64,000 nucleotides of DNA. It comes from a virus. The translations under genes and the position numbers were made by a program. The notes under the pieces were generated by a model. That model saw only the letters and a list, made by a program, of their open reading frames with translations. It had not been told where the DNA came from and searched no databases. Location of the stretch: positions 1 through 64,000 of IMG/VR virus record IMGVR_UViG_3300008450_000030; one strand, given 5' to 3'. This document shows positions 5,016 through 59,072 of this stretch, piece after piece (position 1 is the first letter of the stretch; every line of letters begins with the position of its first letter).

Positions 5016-5558
5016 TTAATCCACTACTTTTACAGGCTTGACCAAAGTAGCATACAGATCAGTAGCCGCTTCTTTGTAGTTCTGAAGCGCAAACTGGACA
5101 TGATCTGGATGCCTTGCGCCGAGTTCTGGGCTAAACGAATAGCCCCACGTTGCATCGAAATTGCAGGAGTACCCCTCTGGGTTCCATTTTATATCGGTGT
5201 GGGAAGCGTTGGTAGCCCTCCACTCCCGCTTCAGGTAGTAATAGAACATCTCAGCCACCGGGGGCCATTGATGGGTGAAGTCCCCATAGGCCCGATTTGA
5301 CGCCCAATGAGGCGTGGCAATGATGGCTTTGCCACCGTCCTTCAGCACCCGGAAGGCTTCGTTCATAAAGTGAACGCGCTGCCGAGCAGTCAGATGCTCA
5401 AGGAAGTGGCTGGCGTTTATCTCTTCCACCGTGCCATCTTCCCAAGGCCACGGGTCAACACCGATGTTCAGAACGACATCGACACCTTCCATAGCGTACT
5501 GATCGACGCCGAGGAATCCTTCTTTCTTGCGTGGGCCACAGCCGAGGTCAAGTTTCAT
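5016..5558 (-). CDS. Class I SAM-dependent methyltransferase
   Basis: 180 residues from ATG at 5558; a TTG nine bases upstream is less likely. Motif I is LDLGCGPRKKEGF at residues 3-15, with the acidic post-motif GVDQY and a later HFLEHLTARQR plus VLKDGGKAIIATP typical of motifs II-III. It should methylate a small molecule, sugar or protein using S-adenosylmethionine. It follows a glycosyltransferase gene by two bases, so the pair may act on the same glycan. The substrate is unknown. Confidence 0.8.
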   Translation of the reverse strand: MKLDLGCGPRKKEGFLGVDQYAMEGVDVVLNIGVDPWPWEDGTVEEINASHFLEHLTARQRVHFMNEAFRVLKDGGKAIIATPHWASNRAYGDFTHQWPPVAEMFYYYLKREWRATNASHTDIKWNPEGYSCNFDATWGYSFSPELGARHPDHVQFALQNYKEAATDLYATLVKPVKVVD

Positions 5559-5560
5559 AG

Positions 5561-6295
5561 TCACCAAGTGTAGTCAGGAATCCCGCCGCGCTTGCCTTCA
5601 AGGTCATAGTGCCCGACCTTTACTGAACAATCTATAGCGCACCGATAGCCGTGTTTACGAGCTTCGGCCCAGAAGTAGAGGTCTTGAGTAGCCACGCCGC
5701 CTTCAGTCTGGGTCACAAACCACGGCTTGCGGAGTTTCTCATCCTTGAACATATCCAGACGCCAGACATTAAACCCCATCCCCGTGCCGTAGCACTCGAC
5801 CAGCCCACCGTTGGGATCAGGCTTTTGGGGGCGGAAGTTCTGGATCGGGTCTTTGATGTCACCCCAGATTTGAGCGCAGCCTCCCGGCCCTTGGGTGAAG
5901 TACAAACCACCAATACAAGCGTACTCAGGATGCGCTTCCATCTGGGCCAACAACTTGATGATCCCGTCTGCTGGCGGGATGTTGTCGTGTTCCAGCGTGA
6001 TGATGTACTTCCACTTGGACAGATCAGGATGCGCGAGGATGCTCTCGATGGCAGAACTAAACGCTTTGCCTACTTCCATCCCAACTGCCCATAGCCGAGT
6101 GAACTTGGCGTTAGGTGGGGCGTACAGGTTCATCCAACTGGCGACTGCCTTAGTCGGAATTTGACCGAAACACGGCACGATCTGGATGCATGACAGGTCT
6201 TTGTAGGACTTGTCTGCCGTCAACCGGGAGATGGTTTCGTCCAGATCAGCGTTGTGTTTGCCACCGTCATAGGATGAAATGATTTGTGGCTGCAT
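5561..6295 (-). CDS. Glycosyltransferase (GT-A fold, family 2-like)
   Basis: 244 residues from ATG at 6295, which overlaps the stop of the preceding gene (TGATG). A nucleotide-sugar site is suggested by the acidic motif ITLEHDNIPP, followed by GGLYFTQG and a downstream DLYFWAEARKHGYR. The GT-A arrangement fits a cytoplasmic enzyme that could glycosylate a virion protein or host surface glycan. Its place inside the tail-fibre genes makes a virion target plausible, but this is inference. Confidence 0.7.
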   Translation of the reverse strand: MQPQIISSYDGGKHNADLDETISRLTADKSYKDLSCIQIVPCFGQIPTKAVASWMNLYAPPNAKFTRLWAVGMEVGKAFSSAIESILAHPDLSKWKYIITLEHDNIPPADGIIKLLAQMEAHPEYACIGGLYFTQGPGGCAQIWGDIKDPIQNFRPQKPDPNGGLVECYGTGMGFNVWRLDMFKDEKLRKPWFVTQTEGGVATQDLYFWAEARKHGYRCAIDCSVKVGHYDLEGKRGGIPDYTW

Positions 6296-41841: not shown

Positions 41842-41868
41842 AGCCCCGCCCTAGAGCGGGGCTTTTTT
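41842..41868 (+). terminator. Early-arm rho-independent terminator
   Basis: Eight-bp stem AGCCCCGC/GCGGGGCT with a CCTAGA loop and seven T. It ends rightward transcription and meets the stop of the opposing late operon. Confidence 0.93.
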
Positions 41869-44800
41869 TATTCCTTACTCTTTTCCTTGGCCTTTTTCTC
41901 CCTGCCCGCTTTTTCTGCCTCAGACGCAGCCCTACGGGATGGTGTTACCGCCTTAATAAACAGTGGTATATTTTTATCGTTCAAGGTCACTCCACGGAAA
42001 GAAGTGGCACGTTGCTCTGCCTTAGCCATTATTGAGTTCTCGATATCGTCCCCCTCAATGTTGTAGGTAGGGAACCGCATATTCCATTTAGCTACGTCTT
42101 TAGCAACGATGTCCGAGAACTTCTTGAAGTTCTTATCCTTGAACTCTCGTTCCATGTTGTCCAAGAGTACCTGACGTTCGTTGAGGATTTTCTGCTCAAG
42201 CCCGATTACCTTAAACGTAACGTACTGCGTATTAGCAAGTAGGTCAGAACGGAAACCAACTGCTTGTGCGATCAACAGCCCAGTAGAGAAGGCATCCTTG
42301 GAAAGAATCTGAGTGCCCTTGCTATCCTTGGCTCCTTCCGTCCACAGCTTGTTTGCGGTTATCACGTTGCGGAATCCAGCGGGGGCCATCTTACGCACCC
42401 CTTTGTCTATGTCTCCTCTAGAGAACGCTTCCCACGCTTCTGCCCCTGCAAGCAGCATATTAGGGCTAGGACCGATGTGGTCTATGGCAAACGCTATTGC
42501 CGTATCCTTTAACGTCTTCTCTTCTTTGCTCTCACGGAGCCAAAGGTTGTTAAGGCTCGTGCGGCTAGAGAAGTCTATTCCAGAGAACGCATTGACTGGA
42601 CCACGTTCAACGATTGTTGCCAGACTAACCCCACCAATCTTGGTACTGCCAAGCTGCTCTTGCAAATACACAGTACGGAACCAAAGCTCGAAGCTCAAGG
42701 ACTTGATATCTTCAGGCCAGTCGTCTTCCCTAAGTTCATCCCAAGCCCAGCCGAGTATGCCCATGATCGTGCTGAACATTGGGAGGCCGACAACACCCGC
42801 AAGTACGTAAGTAGCAGCAAGAGTACCGAAGAACTTCTTAGCGGCTTCGCCTCTGGTGTGCCCATCCATCGGCTTAATCATCTCCTTGAAGTTTTTCAGC
42901 AAGAAGAGCGTTACGTGGAGGCTGTAGAACATGAACTGAGTAAGCACCTTACCCGTAGCACTCTTCATCCAGAGTGGGCGGTTGTAGTCTCCGTAGTTGC
43001 CGAGAGCCTCATTGGTATCGTGGACAGCAGCATCAACTGCTTTCTCTCTTGTCATCCCCGGCTGGCGCATATTTAGCCTGAACGAGGATAGGAACATAAC
43101 TTCACGAGACATCCGTTCGGTGGAGTGCATCAAGCCACCGAGGACCAGCAGATCAACTGTGTCCTTACCAAACTGAACTATCGGAGCACTTTGCTTGCCA
43201 GTCGGTGTTTCCTTGTAGTCGAACACGCTACCAGCGAATGTAGAAGACGCTACATCACGAGAAGTCATCTGCTTGACTGCCCAGACTTCCTCTGGCGATA
43301 ACCCCATACCGTGCTCAATAGATGGCGCAACCCAAGACTTAGACCCGTCTGGGTTAGTAACGTATACGCCAAAGTGCTGCCAGACTTTCAGCATCCGCAG
43401 CATCTCCTTGTTGGCATCGACCACGCCGTACTTAGAGAGCACAGGCATACCTTGCTGGAAGATACTGAGCGGCTGGATCAGTGCAGTTGAAGCACCGCCG
43501 AGGTAGTAGATGTACGCTGCTTTGTTGAGCCACTTCGCAATAGTTTGCGCCACAGAATCATCGTTGGCGAACTTCAGGGAGTCCTTTACCCGAGCTTCCA
43601 TCTCAGCAACGAACGGCTCTTGGTTAGGACGATTGACAATCGAATCCCGCGCTTGAGACAGCGAGTTACGCAGCAATGGAGAGTACTTGATGCGGGCAAG
43701 CTGAGTTGCCATCTTTGCGGTAGTCGTTGCTACATCGCGCAAGAAGTCTGTGCTAGCCCCTGCGATACCTTCACGGTGGATGAACTGCTTGCGGAAACTC
43801 TGCTCGGGCATCGTCTGCAGGTAGATTTGGTACATGGCGTCCTTCAACGCCTCTTTTGCCTCCGCATCTTGCAGGTTCGATTTTTCAACAAGGTCAAAGA
43901 TTTCCCGCAGCATCTCGCTGTTGTCTACCGTAGCCCTACGCAAAGAGGAGATGTCGTTGCCGTAGGTGAACTCTTGGTCTTCCAGCAGTAGTCCAAGTTT
44001 GTCTGCGCGGCGGGTTTCCCACGCTTTGTTTGTCTCATTGGGCTTGCGCTTGATCTGTTCATCAGCAAGGGCACGCATAAGCCGATCACGCTCGGCCATA
44101 GTCTCCCGCATATAGAACTTGCGGGTCTTGCCTTTGCCGACGCTAAGCCAGTACTCGCCTCGGCGAACCAGAGCAAAATACGGGGTGATCTTCGGACCCT
44201 TCTCATACATGGCCCGAATCTTCTTCATTATCACCTTCTGCTCAACCAACGTCAGCTTGCTGCTAGAAATCTGATCGTCTAGGAGCTTGGAGAAGTACTG
44301 AGACAGAGCAACGAAGTGATCCCTAACACGCTTGTATACACGCTGGCCTTCACTACCCAGATCGGTATACATTCTGTCAAGACTAGCGTTACGCTCCTTG
44401 GCCTTAGGGTCGGCAGGATCAACTTCCGCAAGAGTAGCTATCTGCGTAATGCGTTCCAGTTTCCCTCTGAGCGCAGGGTCGTTACGGAAGGCGCGGTCAA
44501 CGTCCGTTACTAGATTACTCGCAGACTTGAGAAGCTGCTGCGTCATGCCACTCATCTGCTGCATCAGCTTAGATGTGTACTGCAAGGAAGGCACGGACGA
44601 AGAAGCCCAATCCACCAAGAACTGAGTCGTGGGGATTTTTACCAAGAACTTGCGGGTGGCTACGTCGAGGACGTTGTAGATGTCTTGAAGAAGGGGGATA
44701 ACCTTCCGAGGGTCCTGTGCCATCTGCAGCATGGTTGCTGCCTTGGCGAACTGCTCGGCTTTGTTCGACTCCTCGAACTTATGTGTAGCTACAGCTACCG

Positions 44801-47800
44801 CAGCATCTACTTCCTTCTGGCTCCTTACTGCCTCTCGGACCTCTTCAGCTTCGCCAGAAATTCCGGCAGAGATGCCGACTTGTCCAGTATCTTTAGGGCC
44901 TTTTCCAGAGCTAGGGGGTAGGCTTTGTCTGAGCGTTCCTGCTCCGCTAGGGTCTGAGTTGTCAGCAGAAACACTTCCATTTTCGATTTGTTCGTTGCCA
45001 TCGTCTTTGAAGCGGTTTCCACGAGCCTCGAAATTTCCATTTTTGAACTCCGTATGCAAGAAGAGGAACACATCAAGATTATCTTTGATATGTTTAGTGA
45101 GGTTATCTAAAACCTGATCCATGTTTATGCCGGGGAATGTCCGCAGCAGCGCCATGATGGTTTGAAACTCTGTTACAAAATTAGCATCGTGGCTACGTAC
45201 TTTGAAGTGCGCCAACTCATGTTGCATTGTGGTAAACATAGCAAGAGCAATCGTGGCAGGGTCTTTACCTCTGTTCCCTTTATCCGCTATGTAGGGGGAA
45301 ATAGCGCATGGGTTTATGAATAAACCCTTAAATGGTATTACTGTGCTGGCCCCAAGATATTTAATATCAACGCTTACGCCAACTACTACCCCATCTAACC
45401 CTTCATAATCCCCTTCCCCCGCAGCGATTAGCGCATTGCGCAGAAGCATAAAGATGTTACCTACCTCTGCTACATACTTGTTGTAGCGTTCCTCACCAAA
45501 TTTTGCGCGAGCAACATCAGACAAAGACGCATCCAAAGGTAGAGCATCAGCTTGATCTTCTACCTTAGGGATAATACCTCTATTAGTAAGCTCTGCGATG
45601 ATTTCAGTAGCCGTACCCCCTACAGCGCGAAAGTCGTCTTCATTCCATTCGTTTTTGTATGCGTAAGTAAAACGGTATTCCGACGATTCAGGGCGATAGC
45701 TAGACTCCCATGTTCTAGTGAGTATGTACGTGTCGGGGGGGTTAGAAGTAACAAGTTTGTTTAACCTAGCAAGGTTGGCGTGGTGTTTGGTAAGGGTTTC
45801 GCGGCGTTCAGTCTGCTTAGTATTATCATGAACCATAACCATATTAGGGTCAAGATTCTCTTGCGGTATGGTTAGTTCATCTATGTTTATATGAGTTCCA
45901 GCCAAATCCTCGTTAGTGATTTCTGGAACCTCTCGACCATTTATGTAAACTACCCCATCACGCACTTCGACTTTATCCCCTGCGCGTATAAGCGTGAAGG
46001 CATTATCTGTAACAGGTACTTTAGGCTCCAGTGTTGCTGCGTTTGTAAGCTTCCCATTAGGTTTTACATACTGCACAGTGCCAAAATTTGTGGCCTCTTT
46101 TGACAAGTCTACATGGCGGTATAGAGCTACTAAATAGTTAAATATCTTACCAAAGTCATTCTTTGCAGCTTCAGAAAAACCTTGCCGATTGAGGTCAAAA
46201 GGATAGCCGGGGTCTTCTGGTTTAGCTACAGAAGCTACGTCTATGTAGAAAACATACGGCAGCTTATCAGCGTTCCACGCCTGTGTCTCTTTTAATGCCG
46301 TGCTAAACTGCCATAACCCATTTGATAGGATGTGAGTATTGTCCCCATATTGTTTACTAGGTATTTTGCTTGCGTAAATACGCGCTATACCCCAGTTAAA
46401 CTTAACATTAGCGAATGGGGTATATGTATCTAAATCAAACTTAGAGCCTATAGGTGCTTGATATAAATATGGGTCTTCGCTGTTTAACTTCTCAACCCAC
46501 ACATCAATGTTGTCAAACAACGGGCTCCTTTTGAGCACTGGGCTATTTACGAGGCTACCCTCTTCAAACGGTATCTCTTTTACTGCCCCCGTGGATGCTT
46601 CTTCGTAAGTTTCAGGTATTTCAACCGTTATAGAAGTACCATGCCCATCAGGGAAAAGAGTATCCCTGTAGTACTTTACTGTTTCAGGATCAGAAGTAGT
46701 AATGACTTTGATCTCGGGTATTTTTACACCACTTTTTTCCCTAGCTTCTTCTATAGCTTTTTCGATTGCGGGTAGCATGGCAAGGACTATAGGATCATCT
46801 CCGATAGCGTCTTTTATGCTTTGCAGTGCCGCTTGCGGACTACCGGCCATAGCTAAGCCAAGTTCTTCTCCAGTAGTAGATAGTTTAGAGATAACCCCAT
46901 TGCGCAAAGATACAGCTTCAAGACTTTTGTTTTCAAACAAAAACAGCATTTTTGCAATGCCAAGCCCACCCGAAGCACGTTCAGTACCTTTGACCGTACC
47001 AGCAATCTGTAGGAACTGTTTCCCCATCACGCTGCTAGGCATACCGGGGCCATTGTCAATTATCTGTACTTTACGATTAGCCTTGTCAACTTTTACATCT
47101 ACCCTGCCTTTAATAAGCCCATGTTTTTCTATACCCTCTTTAATGGCGTCAAATCCATTCTGAAATAGCTCCTTAATAGATACCCGTGCAATATCAGTAG
47201 GTTCACCATACAGTTTAGACCCAAGCAACTTAGCAAGTCGGCGTAAATCACCTCCGGGGGTAGCAGTTTGTTCCTCATATATGTCTGCCGCTGCGCTAAC
47301 AAGGTCATACGCAAGCCTAGTACCGACTGGCTCCCGTGCGGACAACAGCCTATCTGTAACTACAATAAGGTCAGACAGGGCGTTGGTATCCCCATCATCC
47401 ATGCCGAACAGGTCACGGATAGAGCGCACAAAACGGTTGAAGAAGCTCGTATCTTCCTCATACCCCTCAGCCGTCATGAGAAACTCTTGCATATCCTCAT
47501 CGGTCAGACCGTAGGCTATGAACTCCTCAGGGCGAGAGAAAGCCTCGCCAAATTGGTTGAGTGCTCCAATCTGAGGTGACAGTTTTCTTTTTTGTGTAGC
47601 TACATCCCACTGCGCGTTGAGTCTCTTGTACTGGTAATTCGCACTAGCCATAGTACGCATGAGGTCGTTAGCCGCCTGTACCAGAGGCGAGTCGAGCCGC
47701 ATACCATTTGCGATGAGTTCAAGAGCAAGCGTTATCTTGCGGTTAGTAGCTGCGTGCAGTAGTTCGTGCAGGACGGTGACGTTGTTTACGCCTTGGCCCG

Positions 47801-50800
47801 CACCAAACGATGCCCCGCGCACATAGATGACCTTCTCTTTGGTCTTGTAGCTCTCAGTGTAGAGAGCAAGCGCACGGTTCCAATGCCGCAGATTCTTGCT
47901 TTTCTGCAGTTCCGCAGGTAGCGGTTGCCCCTTTTCGATTACAACAAACTTGACCCCAGAGACAAAACTCTTGAGCCTCCGACCAAGCTTACGCTGGAAG
48001 GGATTACCAGTCTTGATGATGTGGGAGAGGGCCTGAGAGCCCGTAGTGAACTGAGCAAACTTAGGGTCAGCAACACCCTGCCCGATCTTAGAGTACAGGT
48101 TTTTACCCTGCTTCTGAAGGTCCATGCCCTTCTTGATCTCTGCCTTCTCTCTGGCATCAGAAGTTTGTGGGTGCTCAAGCGCAGCCTTGACCCGCTCGGC
48201 TACTTTAGTCCCGCGCAGAAGAGGGTCACCTTGCAGGGCAAGCAACTCACGGGTGTGCTGCCGCCTCTGAGAAACTCTTTCTGCTTGCGCTTCCTTTAGG
48301 TCGTTCTCATCCTTGAACGCCCCCTCATCAATAGGGGTAGCCAGCTTCTCTAGAGCTTTCAGAATACGGGTAACTGCACGTTCTGCACGCGCCTTTGCTG
48401 CCTGTACTGGCCTACTCTCGGTTAGCTTTTGCTCTCGCTGCTCTTCTGTGAGGACAGTTGGCCGACCCCGTTTGGTCTTTGGGGTTGTGGAAACAGCGGG
48501 TGCTGCCGCTCCTTGCGCTTCTGCTTGCTGGGTTTCAGGGGTTTCAGTGCCACTTGCGGTTTCCTCAGTAGTGGTTGTGGAGGTAGTAGGTTTCGGCGCA
48601 CGGATCATCGCGCCATCGTCTTGGGGTTCAAAGCCATTACGGGCGTACCAGCTAACTAGAGCGTCTTGCTGTAGTTCTCCGCTGGCCTTAGGCATGATGA
48701 CAAGACGTTCATTGTTCTCGTCTGCCCATGAGGTGAGCTTGTTCAGGACTTCTGACGCCCTACCACTCTGCCCGCCCGCTTGTTTGTTCATGCTGTACAG
48801 CATGACCGCGCCATCACGATCTGGGTACTCAGAGACAATATCGTCGTCTTCCCCAAGGCGTTTAATGCCAGCGAGGACAGATTCATTCCCAACAACACCC
48901 CTGTCATTCTCAAAGCTAAGCAGGGTTTTTTCCGTCTTTACTGCAGTCGGCTGTGTTCCTTCTCCTCCATCAACCCGTCCAGCATCCTGCTCAGTAGAAA
49001 CCACTCCATCTGGTTCAGTTCCGGGAGTTCCCTCGGCAGTGACGACTGCACTGGGCTGCTCAGCCACAGAAACGCCTGTTCCAGTTGTAGTAGTGACAGG
49101 TTTGTTAGCTGGTTTCTTTGATCGGGTACGCGATTCCTTCTCAGCTTGCGCATCTGCTTCAGCCTCCTCATTAGCTTGTTGGGTAGCCTGTTGGAGAGCT
49201 ACTTGTGGTTCTACACCAGCATCAATGAACCCCTGAGTAAGTTCGTCAATACGACCTTGCGGGGCAGAAGTTACCAGCTTGGCAGTAGCATCCTTAGAGC
49301 GTTGGGCCTTCGCCGCTTGCTCGGCCTCAAAGTCCTGCATCTGCCGTTCGGCCATCTGCATGGCGTCGTCTTCGGGAACACCAGTGGCTGCGATTTGTGT
49401 TGCCAGTTCCTCTACTTGCTTTCTACGCTGTAGCGTACTTTGCAGTTTCTGCAGTCTTTCTTCGTCTGGTGTAAATGGTGCGCCGACAGTAGTGGCGGCT
49501 GGCGGTGGGGCAGCGGGGCGTTGCCCGATAGGATTCAAGAACCCCTTAGACCGAGCAATCATTTCGCTCAAGCCTTCGTAGCTTCTGTCTTCCTTGTAGC
49601 CCTTAGGCTCCAGAGCACTCTGCAGTTTCTGTATGCCTTTAACCGCACCGATAGTAGTACCCGCAGTCACCCCAGACTGCAGCACGGTCTGGCGCAGAGT
49701 CTCTTCGAGTTGTTGGTACAGGCCCAACAGGGAAGGGTTTTTATTAAGCCCCACACTAGGAAGTACATCAATGCCGTACTGAGTAAGAGTAGTAGCAAGT
49801 TCTGACGGTATCTCCCCGGCAATAGACTTACCAACGTACTTGGCAATGTCGTTACCGCCATCGGCTACGTACTTCTTGAGTCCAGCTAGGGCCTTGGTCA
49901 TACCGAAGCGTTCAAAGAATACTTCAGCCGCTGCCATTGGTACGGATCGACCAAGGGCTTCCGTTGGTTTGACCCCCGCATCCCTAGACTCGTTGTAGGA
50001 CTGCGCGAATTGGTTGAATCCAGCTTGCAACAACACAGGAGCAGCCGTACCCGTAAGCGCACCTAGTACCAGCATAGGAGCTTGAGTGGCGAAAGACGCC
50101 ATCGCGTGCTGAGCCGACTTAGCAAAGATGGACTCGCCTTCAGGGATCGCCCCTGCTCGCTCTTTTTCGATACGGGAAAGGCCAGCGGTGTATCTTTGGA
50201 GGTCTTCGTTTCCGGTAACGTCAGCGTACATACGCTGCAGACCAAGACCCGTTTGCGTATTTAGCGCACCTATCTCAGCACCAACTCGGCGAACGAACCC
50301 AGCGCCTTCAAGTTCTTTCTTGCGTATAGCTGCTTCTCTACCAGCAACCTCACCGACTACATCCCGATCCATGCCTTGCACTCTAGGGTTAAGTGTCAGC
50401 CCAGATAGCGCATCCCCCATAGCACGGTTTCTAGCCGCTTCGGGGTTCATACCGTTTTTAATGTAGTACGCAGTACGTGCCTCAATACTTGCGTCAGTCA
50501 GTCCTTGGACAGTAGGCAGGGCTTTTTCGGTAGCGGCGTACTGTGCAGCTATGTCCCTAGCCGCAGTCCCGTAGACCCCCGGCTGCTTAGTAAGGTTCTG
50601 GAGTGAGACTGCCCGCTTATCCTCAGGCATGGCATCGAGGCGAGCCTTGATAGCACTAACAAAGTTAGGATCAATAGCCGAACGCCCAACGGCTTCTTGC
50701 GTAGGCGTACGCTCGGGGACGGTAGCGCCCTTGAACTCAAAGGGCTTATCCTTGTCTTCCATCCCGAACAGTTTGCCGAGCATGGAGTTGGGAGCGATAC

Positions 50801-51050
50801 CCAACCCTTTGGTAGCGGTCTGCGCTAGCCCTTCTCCTGCTATCTTGAAGAAGCCGGGGCGTTCTTCAGCGGGAGGGGTTTCTTGCTCAAGCGGGGTGTA
50901 CTCTACCCCTTCTGCGCTAGTCGTGTTTGATTCAAACGGGGTGTACTCTACCCCCTCTGCACTAGCGTCAAGCGGGGTGTACTCTAGCCCCTCCGCACTC
51001 TCCACTTTTTTGTTTACGGGAGTTTTTGCGGCGGGGCTAGAGGGTGTCAT
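41868..51050 (-). CDS. Giant polyvalent virion protein
   Basis: 3060 residues; start overlaps the preceding stop (ATGA). Three N-terminal copies of SAEGxEYTPx lie at 18-27, 30-39 and 45-54. A hydrophobic helical region spans about 305-440, followed by Gln/Glu-rich linkers. A GNAT-like stretch (about 715-822: LNKLTSWADENNERLVIMPK then LVSWYARNGFEP) precedes a zinc metallopeptidase motif HELLH (1095-1099). A GHKL ATPase region has the N-box ELFQNGFDA (1294), DNGPGM (1332-1337) and SGGLGIAKM (from 1360). A second HExxH, HELAHFKVRSH (1944-1954), has metzincin-like spacing. The C-terminal part (about 2690-2780) has a membrane-like segment and resembles LPD-type polyvalent domains. Such proteins are thought to enter the host with phage DNA. 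Confidence 0.85.
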   Translation of the reverse strand: MTPSSPAAKTPVNKKVESAEGLEYTPLDASAEGVEYTPFESNTTSAEGVEYTPLEQETPPAEERPGFFKIAGEGLAQTATKGLGIAPNSMLGKLFGMEDKDKPFEFKGATVPERTPTQEAVGRSAIDPNFVSAIKARLDAMPEDKRAVSLQNLTKQPGVYGTAARDIAAQYAATEKALPTVQGLTDASIEARTAYYIKNGMNPEAARNRAMGDALSGLTLNPRVQGMDRDVVGEVAGREAAIRKKELEGAGFVRRVGAEIGALNTQTGLGLQRMYADVTGNEDLQRYTAGLSRIEKERAGAIPEGESIFAKSAQHAMASFATQAPMLVLGALTGTAAPVLLQAGFNQFAQSYNESRDAGVKPTEALGRSVPMAAAEVFFERFGMTKALAGLKKYVADGGNDIAKYVGKSIAGEIPSELATTLTQYGIDVLPSVGLNKNPSLLGLYQQLEETLRQTVLQSGVTAGTTIGAVKGIQKLQSALEPKGYKEDRSYEGLSEMIARSKGFLNPIGQRPAAPPPAATTVGAPFTPDEERLQKLQSTLQRRKQVEELATQIAATGVPEDDAMQMAERQMQDFEAEQAAKAQRSKDATAKLVTSAPQGRIDELTQGFIDAGVEPQVALQQATQQANEEAEADAQAEKESRTRSKKPANKPVTTTTGTGVSVAEQPSAVVTAEGTPGTEPDGVVSTEQDAGRVDGGEGTQPTAVKTEKTLLSFENDRGVVGNESVLAGIKRLGEDDDIVSEYPDRDGAVMLYSMNKQAGGQSGRASEVLNKLTSWADENNERLVIMPKASGELQQDALVSWYARNGFEPQDDGAMIRAPKPTTSTTTTEETASGTETPETQQAEAQGAAAPAVSTTPKTKRGRPTVLTEEQREQKLTESRPVQAAKARAERAVTRILKALEKLATPIDEGAFKDENDLKEAQAERVSQRRQHTRELLALQGDPLLRGTKVAERVKAALEHPQTSDAREKAEIKKGMDLQKQGKNLYSKIGQGVADPKFAQFTTGSQALSHIIKTGNPFQRKLGRRLKSFVSGVKFVVIEKGQPLPAELQKSKNLRHWNRALALYTESYKTKEKVIYVRGASFGAGQGVNNVTVLHELLHAATNRKITLALELIANGMRLDSPLVQAANDLMRTMASANYQYKRLNAQWDVATQKRKLSPQIGALNQFGEAFSRPEEFIAYGLTDEDMQEFLMTAEGYEEDTSFFNRFVRSIRDLFGMDDGDTNALSDLIVVTDRLLSAREPVGTRLAYDLVSAAADIYEEQTATPGGDLRRLAKLLGSKLYGEPTDIARVSIKELFQNGFDAIKEGIEKHGLIKGRVDVKVDKANRKVQIIDNGPGMPSSVMGKQFLQIAGTVKGTERASGGLGIAKMLFLFENKSLEAVSLRNGVISKLSTTGEELGLAMAGSPQAALQSIKDAIGDDPIVLAMLPAIEKAIEEAREKSGVKIPEIKVITTSDPETVKYYRDTLFPDGHGTSITVEIPETYEEASTGAVKEIPFEEGSLVNSPVLKRSPLFDNIDVWVEKLNSEDPYLYQAPIGSKFDLDTYTPFANVKFNWGIARIYASKIPSKQYGDNTHILSNGLWQFSTALKETQAWNADKLPYVFYIDVASVAKPEDPGYPFDLNRQGFSEAAKNDFGKIFNYLVALYRHVDLSKEATNFGTVQYVKPNGKLTNAATLEPKVPVTDNAFTLIRAGDKVEVRDGVVYINGREVPEITNEDLAGTHINIDELTIPQENLDPNMVMVHDNTKQTERRETLTKHHANLARLNKLVTSNPPDTYILTRTWESSYRPESSEYRFTYAYKNEWNEDDFRAVGGTATEIIAELTNRGIIPKVEDQADALPLDASLSDVARAKFGEERYNKYVAEVGNIFMLLRNALIAAGEGDYEGLDGVVVGVSVDIKYLGASTVIPFKGLFINPCAISPYIADKGNRGKDPATIALAMFTTMQHELAHFKVRSHDANFVTEFQTIMALLRTFPGINMDQVLDNLTKHIKDNLDVFLFLHTEFKNGNFEARGNRFKDDGNEQIENGSVSADNSDPSGAGTLRQSLPPSSGKGPKDTGQVGISAGISGEAEEVREAVRSQKEVDAAVAVATHKFEESNKAEQFAKAATMLQMAQDPRKVIPLLQDIYNVLDVATRKFLVKIPTTQFLVDWASSSVPSLQYTSKLMQQMSGMTQQLLKSASNLVTDVDRAFRNDPALRGKLERITQIATLAEVDPADPKAKERNASLDRMYTDLGSEGQRVYKRVRDHFVALSQYFSKLLDDQISSSKLTLVEQKVIMKKIRAMYEKGPKITPYFALVRRGEYWLSVGKGKTRKFYMRETMAERDRLMRALADEQIKRKPNETNKAWETRRADKLGLLLEDQEFTYGNDISSLRRATVDNSEMLREIFDLVEKSNLQDAEAKEALKDAMYQIYLQTMPEQSFRKQFIHREGIAGASTDFLRDVATTTAKMATQLARIKYSPLLRNSLSQARDSIVNRPNQEPFVAEMEARVKDSLKFANDDSVAQTIAKWLNKAAYIYYLGGASTALIQPLSIFQQGMPVLSKYGVVDANKEMLRMLKVWQHFGVYVTNPDGSKSWVAPSIEHGMGLSPEEVWAVKQMTSRDVASSTFAGSVFDYKETPTGKQSAPIVQFGKDTVDLLVLGGLMHSTERMSREVMFLSSFRLNMRQPGMTREKAVDAAVHDTNEALGNYGDYNRPLWMKSATGKVLTQFMFYSLHVTLFLLKNFKEMIKPMDGHTRGEAAKKFFGTLAATYVLAGVVGLPMFSTIMGILGWAWDELREDDWPEDIKSLSFELWFRTVYLQEQLGSTKIGGVSLATIVERGPVNAFSGIDFSSRTSLNNLWLRESKEEKTLKDTAIAFAIDHIGPSPNMLLAGAEAWEAFSRGDIDKGVRKMAPAGFRNVITANKLWTEGAKDSKGTQILSKDAFSTGLLIAQAVGFRSDLLANTQYVTFKVIGLEQKILNERQVLLDNMEREFKDKNFKKFSDIVAKDVAKWNMRFPTYNIEGDDIENSIMAKAEQRATSFRGVTLNDKNIPLFIKAVTPSRRAASEAEKAGREKKAKEKSKE
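50656..50668. promoter_or_regulatory. Isolated palindrome in the late arm
   Basis: CTAACAAAGTTAG inside the giant gene, the only copy outside the early region; may be a chance match. Confidence 0.3.
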
Positions 51051-53545
51051 CTTACTTTTCCTTTTGGTTTGCCGTCAGCGCCGTAGACGATACCGTCCTT
51101 AACGTAGTCGCCCTTAGCGCCTACTGCTTTGGGTGGTACTGTATCAGGTTTCGCCGAATTAGGCTTTACGCCAGAACCCATTCTTGTGTTAGCTGCTTCA
51201 GTAAGCCTATCTAGCGCCGCAGCCATAGCCTCAGGGTCTTCTTCCATCAACGCCTGTCGATATCCGGGGTCAAGCAGTTTTTGTTTCTGTACGTCTGCTG
51301 CCACAGCAGCACTAGCTGCCTGAACAGTTCTGGCCGTTTGCACCGCCACTGCGCGTGCCCCCATGTCCTTGCGCTCCGTTGTCGCAATAGTGCCAGCTTC
51401 GTTTCGTATCTGCGCGTCGGTCCAGTCAGGGTGCTGCTCTCTAAGAAAATCTACTTTTGCTTGGAAGTTCAATTCGTCCAGTTTTACTTGCGCGGTTTTA
51501 CCGGAACCAGAGCCAGAACCCGACCCCCTACCAATCGGCCTAAGAGCCTGAGCAAGTTTTGCCCCAACAGTACCTCTGTTAAGAAGCGTAGTGCGTTTTT
51601 CCTTGACCGCTGCCAACTTAGCCGCTTCTGCCAGCCGAATAGATTCCTGAGCGCCTTTGATGTCACCGATGCTCTGCTTGTATTCCGCGTCGGCAAGCTG
51701 GTACTGATATTCCTCGATAGCATCCCGCTGTTTGCCGCTTTCTTTCAAGTTCTGGCCGTATTCCCCAGCGAATTTAGGTAGAGCATTACTCAGGCCACTA
51801 CTGAGATTAGACCCCTGTAGTAGGTTTCCAGCAGCACCCAAGAGCGCAACACCAAGACCCTTTTTCTCTTGCTCTCCAATTTTGGCCTCCCTAGCCGCGA
51901 GTTTTTCTCGCATCGGGGCGTATGGGCTAGGTCCGGCCAAATCACGCATTTCGTCGCGTTCCTTTATGATGGAAGCGCGACGTTGCTCATCGGTCAGCGG
52001 AGTTGGTTCTTTAAGGTTGTCGAATTGATCGAACGCATCTGCTGTTCTAAGCGCAACCCTACGGTACTGCTCTGGGATACCGGGAGACTCTAGATACCGA
52101 TCCTCCCTATCGTCTTCGTATTCATCCTCTGAACTACCACCCCCACGAGCAAAAGCAACGATGCCACCGTTAGCCATGCTCTCTTGTGTAGGCACGATGT
52201 TGTTGACCATATCCTGTGAGGCCATAGCAGAAATGCTATTAGGTGCGATTTGTTCTGCGGGGGCTTCCGGGGGTTGGGTTATAGCAGGGAGCACTGCTTG
52301 TCCTGTACCACCCTCAGCACCTACACCACGTTTCTGCATCTCTTCAGCAATAACTCTGATCCGCTCGGGATCACCCATCCGCACAGCAATATCGTAAGCC
52401 TGTTTAAGTTGCTCGTTACTTAACATAGGGACAATAGCGGCTACGTTATCGTCACCCGTGATACCGCCACTAGTAATACCACCATCAGCATAGGCCAGAC
52501 CGCCACGCGCAAACAGTTGGCTTGCTCCAGCAGCAGCAGTACCAGCAGCAGCTAGGTTCTGTGCAGTACTAGGGCCAGCACTGTACATTGAAGTAGTGGA
52601 CGAAGAGCCAGACGGCACTGCGCGTAAGAGGTCAGACCTACGCATGATCTGATCCCAGTCGAAGTTCTTCTGGTTCATCCAGTCTTGATAACCAATATCA
52701 AGACCTTTTTGCGCTTGGGCTTGCTGCTGCTGTCCGTAGGTATTACGCAGCTTATTGATATCCATGCCTTGCTGGAACTGCTGCCCACCAAGCGTAGACA
52801 ACACCTGAGCAGCGTTGAGCCCAGCGGTAGAACCAAACTGCCGTGACTGTTCCCGCGCCTGATCTGCTGAAAGACCGTACTGTGCGCGATTCTGCGCGTT
52901 CTGCATCTGCCGCTGTTGGTCCGCGCTGAACATCCCTGCGGCCTGATTGAAGGCGTCACTGTAGCCTCTGGCGTTGATGTCCGCCATGTTCTGCAGGGTG
53001 TTCTTTTCAGTCATAGACTGCTGCAACGCGCCGCGAGTACCACCAAAAGCACCCATGCCCACTGCTTTGGCAGCGTTCAGGTTCTGTGCTTGCATACCCG
53101 CACTAGCCGCTTCCCGTATCTGCGGAGCCAGTGCGCCCTGAAGAAACGGGTTCATGTACTGATCGACATTCGCACCCGTGTACTGCTGAAGCTGGTTGTT
53201 GTACTGGTTCTGGAAATCAGCGGGGTTGTACTGCCCTGCCTGAGTAGCCATTTGCGTAGCAGTACCGATCTGCGGCGCAACACCCATGTTTTGAGCGTCT
53301 GTATAAGACTGCTGCTGCATCGGGTCAAAACCCGCCAGCCTATTACCGCCGTACTGTTCGTACCCTTGCTCGGTAAGCTCCATACCCTTAGCAAGGGTTT
53401 CCTTAGCGGCTTCACGAGCCCACGGCGCAACATCGCTGATTACGGTTTGCGTAGTATTCGCAGGAGTCTTTCCACCCCCACCACCGCCGAGGTTCAACCC
53501 GAAAACTCCAGCCCAGCGCAGTGCGCTCAACAACAACTTAACCAT
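51047..53545 (-). CDS. Internal virion / ejection-like protein
   Basis: 832 residues. A short hydrophobic N-terminus with LNLGGGGGGKTPA is followed by a helical, Gln/Ala-rich central part (QQRQMQNAQNRAQYGLS; AQAQKGLDIG) and a glycine/acidic stretch around 470-500, then a helical C-terminal region with NLLQGSNLSSGL and ending in a Gly/Lys tail. Its composition resembles podovirus internal core or ejection proteins. It precedes the giant gene with a four-base overlap. Confidence 0.6.
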   Translation of the reverse strand: MVKLLLSALRWAGVFGLNLGGGGGGKTPANTTQTVISDVAPWAREAAKETLAKGMELTEQGYEQYGGNRLAGFDPMQQQSYTDAQNMGVAPQIGTATQMATQAGQYNPADFQNQYNNQLQQYTGANVDQYMNPFLQGALAPQIREAASAGMQAQNLNAAKAVGMGAFGGTRGALQQSMTEKNTLQNMADINARGYSDAFNQAAGMFSADQQRQMQNAQNRAQYGLSADQAREQSRQFGSTAGLNAAQVLSTLGGQQFQQGMDINKLRNTYGQQQQAQAQKGLDIGYQDWMNQKNFDWDQIMRRSDLLRAVPSGSSSTTSMYSAGPSTAQNLAAAGTAAAGASQLFARGGLAYADGGITSGGITGDDNVAAIVPMLSNEQLKQAYDIAVRMGDPERIRVIAEEMQKRGVGAEGGTGQAVLPAITQPPEAPAEQIAPNSISAMASQDMVNNIVPTQESMANGGIVAFARGGGSSEDEYEDDREDRYLESPGIPEQYRRVALRTADAFDQFDNLKEPTPLTDEQRRASIIKERDEMRDLAGPSPYAPMREKLAAREAKIGEQEKKGLGVALLGAAGNLLQGSNLSSGLSNALPKFAGEYGQNLKESGKQRDAIEEYQYQLADAEYKQSIGDIKGAQESIRLAEAAKLAAVKEKRTTLLNRGTVGAKLAQALRPIGRGSGSGSGSGKTAQVKLDELNFQAKVDFLREQHPDWTDAQIRNEAGTIATTERKDMGARAVAVQTARTVQAASAAVAADVQKQKLLDPGYRQALMEEDPEAMAAALDRLTEAANTRMGSGVKPNSAKPDTVPPKAVGAKGDYVKDGIVYGADGKPKGKVR

Positions 53546-55279: not shown

Positions 55280-55936
55280 TCACGCAGGTAGCGCGGATAC
55301 AAATGACATCGTGGCTACGACAGAGGCGGTAGAGGGCTTGGTTGGCAAGATGGTGGCAATGTAGGTCGGGAGTGTCACTAGAATGTTTGTAGCCGACCAG
55401 TAAATTTCCACCTCATCTTCTGCTTCCATTGAGAGGAAGTAGTTCCAGCCCTTGATGTCGTGCGACGGGTCTAGTGGTGTTTTGTGGGCAGGCATACCGA
55501 CTTTTCCCGTAGACCCAACAATGTCTACTCCGTTTTGCTTAAGCCAGATGAAAACATCCTGTGGAGCATTGTCATTGTTTTCTACCTGCACGCTGAACTG
55601 CATATTGTAGATACCAGCGTTTGCTACTTTCATAGCAGACGAGACAAGAGAGACTCCGTTGCTGAAGTCCGTTTGAGTCATCAGCACTTGCGTTGCTGTG
55701 TTAGCCGCTGTCATTGACTGTGAGGCATAACTGGAGAACGCCCCGTATGGGATGTTCAAAAACCTACCGCCTTGCCCCCCAGCCAACGGTCCTAGCGTCC
55801 CGTCAATCTGATTGAAATACAGCCGCAGTACGTTGTTTAGCTGATCCAGATACCTCGCATCTGGCGGCTGTGGGCTAGACGGTAGCCTCGGGGCTACAGT
55901 TGGAATTAGCCGACTGATTAGTGGGCTAGTTGCCAT
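55280..55936 (-). CDS. C1q/TNF-like fibre or decoration protein
   Basis: 218 residues from ATG at 55936, which overlaps the TAA of the homing endonuclease gene (TAATG), with GGGGGGA seven bases before. The C-terminal 130 residues (GIYNMQFSVQVENNDNAPQD; VFIWLKQNGVDI) follow the beta jelly-roll pattern of phage trimeric C1q-like domains. Probably a tail or head fibre component. Confidence 0.6.
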   Translation of the reverse strand: MATSPLISRLIPTVAPRLPSSPQPPDARYLDQLNNVLRLYFNQIDGTLGPLAGGQGGRFLNIPYGAFSSYASQSMTAANTATQVLMTQTDFSNGVSLVSSAMKVANAGIYNMQFSVQVENNDNAPQDVFIWLKQNGVDIVGSTGKVGMPAHKTPLDPSHDIKGWNYFLSMEAEDEVEIYWSATNILVTLPTYIATILPTKPSTASVVATMSFVSALPA

Positions 55937-56565
55937 TAAATATCCCCCCAATGCAGTCGCTCAAGTTCCTTGCGAGCAGTAGCAGCTTCTTCGATACTGT
56001 GACAGGCTTTTGAGTAGAAACCTTTGCTTTTCACGGAGACTTTTCCATAGTACCGATTATTGCGAATGACTACCCCAACTACGCCGGTCTTGCTGTTTGC
56101 TCGCACTCTGACATTCCTATTTTGGGTTGTGGCCCCTGCCCACCGACAGTTTTCTGGTCCATAGTTTCCGTATGTATTGATCCTATCCAGCGTCTCATCC
56201 CCGTTTGGTTCGCCCATATCCGCAGCAAAGTTGATGTACTCATGCCAATGCTCGCATACAGTAATACCTTTGCCACCGTAGCGCGGATAGTCTTTATCTC
56301 TAGGATTGTTGCATCGGCGTAGCATTGCACGCCATGTATTGTAAGAACCTTTGTTAGTTCCGCCGTGCTTGGTAATCTGCTCCTGTAACCAACAACCGCA
56401 CGATGTTGTATTGCCCGTAACCAAAGAGCCGGATGGAACGCACACTTCTGTACCACAATCACAACGACATCGCCAAAGTGCTTTCTTCAAGACGTTAGCC
56501 CCGTTGCGCTCAAGTGCAACCAACCTCCCAAAGCGCTGTCCAGTTCTATCAATAAGTTTAGGCAT
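55936..56565 (-). CDS. HNH/AP2 homing endonuclease
   Basis: 209 residues from ATG at 56565 with GGAG ten bases upstream. A zinc-ribbon CRCDCG and CGCW, an HNH-like core LDRINTYGNYGPENCRWAG and a C-terminal AP2-like segment (GVVIRNNRYYGKVSVKSKGF) identify a free-standing homing endonuclease. It lies between two structural genes. It likely spreads itself into phage genomes lacking it. Confidence 0.85.
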   Translation of the reverse strand: MPKLIDRTGQRFGRLVALERNGANVLKKALWRCRCDCGTEVCVPSGSLVTGNTTSCGCWLQEQITKHGGTNKGSYNTWRAMLRRCNNPRDKDYPRYGGKGITVCEHWHEYINFAADMGEPNGDETLDRINTYGNYGPENCRWAGATTQNRNVRVRANSKTGVVGVVIRNNRYYGKVSVKSKGFYSKACHSIEEAATARKELERLHWGDI

Positions 56566-56621
56566 TGCAGGACTCCGTAATTGAAGCCCCCATTGTATCG
56601 ACATTTGACAGGATGGCAAGG

Positions 56622-59072
56622 TCATTTCCTCCCATCAGGGCGGATATCAATACGGGTCACACCTAACTGCCACTGTACGCCGAGCGTGTCGGAACTGACC
56701 TTGAAGGCCATCTGCCTACCTCGAATCCGCACATAGACTTGCTCAGTGAACTGCTGAACGGTGTAGGTACGTTGGCTTTGGTAGTTCTGGGTACTTATCA
56801 CATCCGGGACAGCAGACGTTCCGTAATCAGCACCGGGGAAGGTCCGTGGCCTAGTTGTGAACATTGCCGTTGGGTTGTTGACGAACGAGCCATCAAAGGT
56901 CAAGTCAGGAATCAGACGCCAGACGAACCCGTAGTTATGCCCATCCCCAATGTCAAAGTCGGAAGACTGTATGTACGCAGAGATGGGGTTTGGTGGATTG
57001 ACTGTCGCATCGTCTGTGCCTGTCTCTTGGTAGACAAGCTGTGCGTTGGTTGTGCCCCCAGCCGCGCCATAGATCATGGACATAGGCACTTCCCGCAATG
57101 AGCTATCTAGCCAAGCGGTGCGCCCTTGATTGTCGCCCTCAAAGTTAGCCCAGTCCCCGTACCACCAGACTTGATCCAAGTAGTCATAGACAACATAACG
57201 ATCTATCTCGGTAGAATTTGCGGAACAGTAGCTCCACCAGACTTCGCTGTAGCCTTCGTTAGTACCTGCGTGGAATTGGTACGCTTGGGATAAGTTGATG
57301 TCTGTGAAAACATACTCGCGCAACGTACATGGCAAAGTCTGCACTCGGCCTGAGTACATAAAGAACTTGTCCATCCCCATCCAGTAAGTGATATTGCTGG
57401 CAGTGGCAACAGCGTTGGGGCCATTGATAGATATATTGTCCTCAAGAATCTGAAAGCCCCACACATACGGTGGGCCAAGGTACTGCATAGAGTACAAAGC
57501 AGAGTCAGTGAAAACCAAAATCTCTTGTCGGGTTTGGATGGCAGTGATAATAGACGAGCCGTGGCTCAAACGGTAGTCACCCGCTTGGTTAGTTGTTGCG
57601 GGGTTCCATGTGTAGTAGCTTTCCTGATCCGACCAGCGAATCTGCATGGGGTCAAGGGTGTTGGTAGCGTAAGTGTTCGTGGGGTCGTTACACCCAAGGG
57701 CAATCACAAAGCGTGAAGCATCGGAAACAATCGCAAAGTTAACTACTGAGGGGCAGGTAGAGTCCACCAGAGCCCCACCCACGGTTGTACCCGCCCTAAT
57801 CTCCACTCCTCGATCAAAAATAGTGGGGGCTGGGTTGGTGTCCCAGTAGTACATCGGACCACCGCGAGCGCAGAAAACAAGGTTCTCACCGAAGTTGGAC
57901 TGACTCCACAAGCGCATCTGCAAGCCAATACCCACACCAGATGTTGCCGCGACACCCCAACCAGTGAACAAAGTAGACAACTGAATGACAGCGCCTGTAA
58001 GGTGTACGGCGGGAAAAGTCCCACTAGCCGCCCGGACGCAGCCAGTAAACGTAGTCGGCGAAGTGCCCGTATAGGAGATCAACTCTGAGTCAATCAGGAA
58101 CGTACCTGCAGTACCAAAGCCTGTCGTACTGGCTACCGTAATCGTCGTAGTGACCAACTGAACAATAGCACCTGTGGCATGGGCTACAGCAAAAGTGCTG
58201 CTAGCCCCACGAACACAGCCAGTAAGCGTGTTGGTAGAAACTCCAGAAAAAGTAATCAGTTCGTTGTCAACAACGATTGTGCCCGGAGCAGTGAACCCAG
58301 TCGCGCTTGTCAGCACAATAGAAGTTGCAGAGGAAGTGATCGCTCCGTTAAGCGTAGTTTGTGTTACCGCGCCAAGCGTAGTGGACGCAACACCCGTGAC
58401 TGCTCCGCCCCAAGCACCCGAACCCCAACCCACACCAGTCGTGTATATCTCATTACCTGTCGTAATCTGGAACGCAAATGTTGCGTTTACCGTTGGAGTG
58501 CCCGAAGTTGCAGCGGCTGTAGCTACAGTAATGTAGAAGGTGTTTGAGTCGTTATAGGTGACCTGATACTCACCATCCATCGTATCCTGTGAAATACCGT
58601 TAACTACACCAGTTGTCCCAGAGATGGTTACAAAGTCACCTGTCTGAGCGCCGTGAGAAGGGTAGTTAACTCTAACCTGTGTAGATGCGGCTGTAGTCGT
58701 GAACGCATTAGTAGCAAGTGCAGGGGTCAGTCGTAACGGGGTAACGTCATAAAACGCACCGCCCGGACCATTCTGGATGTAGTACTTGAGGTTAGTACCA
58801 ACGGCGAGCAAGTTGTAGGCTGACAGCGTGACCCAGTTCCACATCGCCCGCGCTATGCCCCAGAGCGTGCCCGTAGGCGGGGCGGATACATCGGTAGTTA
58901 CCCCCGCGATTTCCGCAGATAGAACACCACTGTCGCTGACCCAACCCCCCATCTTTTCAGGTTGTCCTGAACGGAAGCGAATCTTGTTGCACTCATACCA
59001 GCCACCTTCGTTGCCATAAGTGGTGGTTTCCCTGTTTACACCGGGATTGAACTTGAGTTTCTGTAGTGGCAT
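56622..59072 (-). CDS. Large virion structural protein, stabilisation-like
   Basis: 816 residues. The N-terminus MPLQKLKFNPGVNRETTTYG then GGWYECNKIRFRSGQPEKMG matches a phage structural group related to head or DNA stabilisation proteins. Two internal repeats with VDNELITFSGVS and LTGCVRGASSTF type sequence lie around residues 250-350. The C-terminal half is beta-rich. A tail or head closure role is likely; the exact one is not determined. Confidence 0.6.
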   Translation of the reverse strand: MPLQKLKFNPGVNRETTTYGNEGGWYECNKIRFRSGQPEKMGGWVSDSGVLSAEIAGVTTDVSAPPTGTLWGIARAMWNWVTLSAYNLLAVGTNLKYYIQNGPGGAFYDVTPLRLTPALATNAFTTTAASTQVRVNYPSHGAQTGDFVTISGTTGVVNGISQDTMDGEYQVTYNDSNTFYITVATAAATSGTPTVNATFAFQITTGNEIYTTGVGWGSGAWGGAVTGVASTTLGAVTQTTLNGAITSSATSIVLTSATGFTAPGTIVVDNELITFSGVSTNTLTGCVRGASSTFAVAHATGAIVQLVTTTITVASTTGFGTAGTFLIDSELISYTGTSPTTFTGCVRAASGTFPAVHLTGAVIQLSTLFTGWGVAATSGVGIGLQMRLWSQSNFGENLVFCARGGPMYYWDTNPAPTIFDRGVEIRAGTTVGGALVDSTCPSVVNFAIVSDASRFVIALGCNDPTNTYATNTLDPMQIRWSDQESYYTWNPATTNQAGDYRLSHGSSIITAIQTRQEILVFTDSALYSMQYLGPPYVWGFQILEDNISINGPNAVATASNITYWMGMDKFFMYSGRVQTLPCTLREYVFTDINLSQAYQFHAGTNEGYSEVWWSYCSANSTEIDRYVVYDYLDQVWWYGDWANFEGDNQGRTAWLDSSLREVPMSMIYGAAGGTTNAQLVYQETGTDDATVNPPNPISAYIQSSDFDIGDGHNYGFVWRLIPDLTFDGSFVNNPTAMFTTRPRTFPGADYGTSAVPDVISTQNYQSQRTYTVQQFTEQVYVRIRGRQMAFKVSSDTLGVQWQLGVTRIDIRPDGRK

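Follow-up and report, generated by a model that had tools for sequence, protein, structure and literature searches.

A constant GHKL ATPase-zincin core in giant polyvalent proteins of uncultured, mostly aquatic short-tailed phages

The window analysed here is a stretch of 64,000 nucleotides (positions 1 to 64,000) from a virus contig of 66,207 bases, IMG/VR record IMGVR_UViG_3300008450_000030, which encodes TerL, portal, DNA polymerase, and helicase. No deposited phage TerL exceeds 57% identity to that of the contig, and the closest come from aquatic phages (e.g., DSL-LC04 and Pelagibacter phages). Positions 41868-51050 hold one uninterrupted open reading frame (ORF) of 3060 residues; a sequence-only reading of this DNA had recognized the frame and given no strand, and it lies on the minus strand. 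The start codon lies in an ATGA shared with the gene before it, which matches a DNA ejection protein in PHROGs, and the setting is a podovirus-like late operon in which the giant gene directly follows the ejection-protein gene. An ejection protein homologue likewise lies upstream of the related ORF in 61 of 82 related loci, some of the remainder being truncated contigs. The features of the locus are as follows, with residue r of the giant protein starting at position 51050-3(r-1):

51047..53545, minus strand: DNA ejection protein gene (phrog_4287), directly upstream of the giant ORF and overlapping it
41868..51050, minus strand: giant polyvalent/ejection-type protein, 3060 residues
48981..50717, minus strand: residues 112-690 (N-terminal), conserved across the 34 close-clade loci
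48531..48968, minus strand: residues 695-840, GNAT-like half domain that occurs sporadically among relatives, at differing positions
47316..48053, minus strand: zincin 1, residues 1000-1245, with HELLH at 1095 and a conserved EF(I/V)AYG; homologue of PDB 9sfn_G
46551..47264, minus strand: HSP90-like GHKL ATPase domain, residues 1263-1500 (E1294, N1298, D1301; D1332-G1336; G1361-K1367; G1471-T1472)
45816..46550, minus strand: GHKL transducer-like domain, residues 1501-1745, with invariant SNGLWQF and R1622
45033..45515, minus strand: zincin 2, residues 1846-2006, WLM/YgjP-like, HELAHFKVRSHDANF (HExxHx5HxxxF)
44259..44636, minus strand: LPD39, residues 2139-2264 (28.7 bits against a cut-off of 27)
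41970..44183, minus strand: PLxRFG C-terminal domain, residues 2290-3027 (E = 3.5e-91)

The earlier description of this gene product as a polyvalent, probable internal virion protein finds good support in the adjacent ejection-protein gene, the LPD39 and PLxRFG domains, and the homology of zincin 1 to a solved internal virion protein. Two zincins, a GHKL ATPase, and an LPD39 domain scoring above its cut-off occur in one polypeptide, portal and TerL are encoded in the same record, and the PLxRFG C-terminal part is common to DarB-like giant proteins. A C-terminal part previously called membrane-like amounts to one strong hydrophobic stretch inside the PLxRFG domain (residues 2739-2770); another stretch, at residues 323-345, belongs to the N-terminal region. 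The proposed GNAT domain at about residues 715-822 is weakly supported. The segment matches phage acetyltransferases (E = 2e-3), its relatives match Acetyltransf_7 (E = 0.003-0.02), and the predicted structure shows the beta-alpha-beta-alpha-beta half of the GNAT topology; however, the segment of the window protein has no Pfam match, and the several GNAT structures among the Foldseek matches of its model are all non-significant. A good homologue was found in one locus only (L015), with weak ones at other positions in two more (L072 and L084). Residues 695-840 are likely a degenerate or half GNAT, for which acetyltransferase activity is doubtful.

The central part of the protein carries a GHKL ATPase, in agreement with the HSP90/GHKL-type ATPase suggested at about residues 1290-1370. 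This segment matches PF02518 (E = 3.4e-5) and the HSP90 family NF010683 (E = 3.7e-5), and a GHKL family match was obtained in each of 16 relatives scanned. The single GHKL segment, searched by sequence against the PDB, matched nothing beyond chance level. We predicted the structure of the module formed by the GHKL and zincin 2 regions with AlphaFold from a 61-sequence alignment; the model has a pLDDT of 84.9, rising above 90 in most of the GHKL core and of zincin 2. In a Foldseek search against the PDB, it matched HSP90, TRAP1, SMCHD1, MORC, and GyrB (E = 1e-11 to 1e-9), and since these matches span about 430-490 columns, the transducer is present too. GHKL structures alone were among the matches listed, with zincin 2 not separately represented. 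The N box, G1, and G2 motifs show little or no variation across the 70 distinct ORFs of the family, and the fold is of the Bergerat type followed by a transducer; the ATP pocket, like the zinc pocket of zincin 2, was judged from conservation and fold. When the transducer was compared locally by HMM with those of HtpG, MutL, and GyrB, no significant alignment resulted, so that any assignment to a GHKL subfamily by this domain is one of fold. For the same reason, the alignment of the invariant R1622 with HtpG R336 in a global comparison, at 328 versus 302 residues from the catalytic glutamate, is only suggestive of a counterpart. A Peptidase_S26 candidate at residues 1690-1720 (E = 0.004) was discarded, being below the cut-off and inside the conserved transducer region.

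The second HExxH motif noticed at residue 1944 reads HELAH and belongs to a metallopeptidase domain that family profiles place with the WLM and YgjP-like (Wss1-like) enzymes. Pfam profiles run on 49 family members matched WLM in 44 and YgjP-like in 48. The window protein itself scores 16.1 bits with WLM, under the Pfam gathering cut-off of 26, while the best relative reaches E = 1.2e-5, and Wss1p ranks second among the PDB profile matches of zincin 2 (E = 0.0073). For a protein of this composition, the expected number of HExxH motifs is 0.02. The first such motif, HELLH at residue 1095, also proved to lie in a genuine zincin homologue: zincin 1 matches chain G of PDB 9sfn ("Internal virion protein") both by sequence and by profile (E = 7.7e-19), the match covering zincin 1 only. 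The downstream EF(I/V)AYG may supply the third zinc ligand.

Searching IMG/VR with a profile of the module brought up 79 contigs in addition to the window. A single-sequence scan with the GHKL part had returned no relatives, and it was a query with the middle part plus zincin 2 that opened the family. Complete module ORFs range from 1895 to 3355 residues. One frame, at L051:2-16657, runs open for 5552 codons with a truncated 5' end and carries the module at residues 3334-4068. Among the 70 distinct module ORFs, pairwise identity is 28-57%, and hardly any variation is seen in the catalytic residues of either enzyme: E1294, N1298, D1301, D1332, G1336, G1361, G1364, K1367, G1471, and R1622 of the GHKL part, together with H1944, E1945, H1948, H1954, and F1958 of zincin 2. 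Zincin 2 is carried by all 70, and a check for exceptions returned none. This association was not selected for, because the patterns used in the DNA scan (FANVKFN and SNGLWQF) were transducer sequences of the GHKL part, and a tblastn match sufficed for confirmation. Zincin 1 precedes the module in 30 of these ORFs, follows it in 12 (mostly as partial matches), and was not detected in 28. One 3037-residue ORF (L029:7082-16192) has the swapped order, with GHKL and zincin 2 followed by zincin 1. The linkers of relatives are long, low in identity, and differing, with the module intact throughout; ART-PolyVal domains occur in four of 16 members scanned and LPD38 or LPD22 in some. Because zincin 1 moves or escapes detection and the other domains vary, the constant core is the pair of GHKL and zincin 2, residues 1263-2006, around which the remaining domains are shuffled. 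The unit is therefore not a GHKL ATPase between two proteases, as had been proposed; zincin 1 is optional and mobile relative to the module.

The giant protein also appears to diverge quickly. Between the window and the genome of locus L008, TerL is 87% identical and the module about 50-54%, the pattern expected for a protein that faces the host and evolves quickly. Another TerL homologue (L097, G005:C1:21894-23411; 68% identical) contains one in-frame TGA that may be a sequencing error, a pseudogene mutation, or recoding.

The phages that carry the module are short-tailed, uncultured, and mostly aquatic, and form a family. Searching the GHKL/transducer part by tblastn against 50,697 phage records gave no match at E values up to 1, and a distant relative used as query gave generic GHKL matches only, including RIIA. 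No full copy of the module was found in these records, in plasmids (tested with the GHKL part), or in 84,980 prokaryote genomes; plasmid matches were limited to the GHKL core, as were the four weak matches in the prokaryote genomes. Nor was the module seen in the stretches examined of the TerL-related isolates DSL-LC04, HTVC023P, and Pag-Yong1. The last of these, a Planktothrix phage, encodes a 2772-residue "large polyvalent protein" that has two HExxH motifs and lacks the GHKL module (L093:3-8318). On the Agrobacterium plasmid NZ_CP072139.1 (L003:3229-6551), a gene for a PIN-like domain protein and one for a GHKL "ATP-binding protein" form a two-gene unit beside DGQHR-domain genes; the GHKL protein matches the module profile (E = 1.3e-14), and the unit looks like a possible defence cassette. 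By Foldseek, the unnamed viral protein A0A516L4L2 of UniProt (a BFVD fragment) matches the whole module (TM 0.69, 27% identity), and therefore a sequence of this kind is already deposited, though we found no description of it. The open (non-subscription) literature searched likewise held no earlier description of a GHKL-zincin pairing in polyvalent or phage proteins. As far as we found, the fixed pair of an HSP90-like GHKL ATPase and a Wss1-like zincin is new, whereas polyvalent ejection proteins are known as a kind.

Several known systems resemble parts of this protein. It shares with the polyvalent proteins surveyed by Iyer et al. (2017; PMC5512222) the giant multidomain phage format, zincins, LPD39, ART or GNAT-like domains in relatives, and late-gene neighbours, and differs in having a GHKL-zincin unit as its constant core; HSP90 or GHKL domains are not mentioned in that survey. 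Podophage internal virion proteins, i.e., 9sfn_G and a 1576-residue protein of Limnohabitans phage YIMV22061, have a homologous zincin 1 with HExxH and EF/ELxAxG motifs and are encoded in the same position after tail-tube and ejection genes, but they are about half as long; 9sfn_G is matched only at zincin 1, and the YIMV22061 protein gave no match to the module. HSP90/HtpG shares the N-terminal ATPase motifs and is the best cellular match both by structure and, among those compared, by profile (hhalign P = 6e-7). In contrast to HSP90, zincin 2 sits where the C-terminal dimerization domain would be, and the transducer is not recognizable by local sequence comparison. The protein is not HSP90 proper, as that dimerization domain is absent and no full HSP90 family score comes close to its cut-off (22 bits against 455). 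The Wss1/WLM and YgjP-like metallopeptidases share the HExxHx5HxxxF motif, but here the domain is fused to a GHKL ATPase and the window member scores weakly. T4 rIIA, a phage GHKL protein tied to counter-defence (PMC7824862), is among the viral Foldseek matches of the module; unlike the giant protein, it is made after infection and has no known zincin. Sequence similarity to it did not extend past the generic GHKL motifs, this being the weakest of four comparisons (hhalign P = 0.005) with the GHKL core alone aligned.

It is established that GHKL ATPases work as dimer clamps gated by ATP. ATP is found in the cytoplasm, so this domain can only work in one of two places, the producing cell or, once ejected, the new host. 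The ejection-protein context, the divergence relative to TerL, and the co-occurring ART domains lead us to favour the new host modestly. In our leading explanation, to which we assign a probability of roughly 40%, this is an ejected polyvalent protein whose two-enzyme payload, an ATP-clamped zinc protease, acts in the host cytoplasm. The protein would be carried in the phage head and ejected with the DNA, placing a part of itself in the cytoplasm. There the central payload (residues 1263-2006), an HSP90-like GHKL ATPase and transducer joined to a Wss1/YgjP-like zinc protease, would bind ATP and close its dimer clamp on a substrate, which may be a folded or DNA-bound host protein or an ejectosome component; zincin 2, tethered to the clamp, would then cut this substrate. 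Zincin 1 and the C-terminal LPD39/PLxRFG part would serve virion packaging, ejection, or processing.

The main rival explanation keeps the enzymes in the producing cell or head, where the zincins would cut the giant protein or other virion proteins and a GHKL chaperone would fold the giant protein or load it into the capsid, with nothing enzymatic delivered. The fixed coupling of GHKL and zincin 2 fits this equally well, and chaperone/peptidase pairs encoded by jumbo phages are believed to take part in building the virion (PMC7824862). However, the linkers vary around a module that is itself preserved, no conserved site of cleavage was found, and the ART-PolyVal domains of family members suggest host targets; we regard assembly or self-processing as somewhat doubtful. 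Less probable still is a role for the GHKL ATPase where the ejection channel opens into the cytoplasm: it would refold ejection proteins or aid DNA entry, and the protease would dismantle the channel afterwards. T7 gp16 does unfold in part for exit, its C-terminal part reaching the cytoplasm (PMC8954989). The position of the giant gene after the ejection protein gene and the two hydrophobic stretches of its product would suit such a role. Against it, GHKL ATPases are switches or clamps, and we know of none that is a DNA-translocating motor; nor, to our knowledge, is any virion ATPase needed for DNA ejection in T7-like phages. That the module is a relic or scaffold devoid of catalysis is very improbable, given catalytic residues of both enzymes that stay invariant or nearly so in 70 ORFs with pairwise identities down to 28%.

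The earlier suggestion of an injected anti-defence or take-over machine is plausible, although no target is indicated by the data. A more specific claim, that phages inject an ATP-gated protease made of an HSP90-type clamp fused to a Wss1-like zincin and thereby destroy specific host or DNA-bound proteins as the DNA enters, is unlikely enough to be advanced only tentatively. The energy-dependent proteases known to us use AAA+ unfoldases; an HSP90-type ATPase driving or gating a protease would, if true, represent a different principle. Within the databases searched, the module is specific to phages, many aquatic lineages of which conserve it, and its 744 residues offer an accessible test piece for the action of polyvalent proteins in the host.

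Two smaller ORFs of the window were assigned by eye. The one at 55936-56625, among structural genes, starts with a MPKLIDRTGQRFGRL-like sequence and resembles a homing-endonuclease/AP2-type protein. The other, at 5016-5567 among tail genes (MKLDLGCGPRKKEGF), resembles a SAM-dependent methyltransferase.
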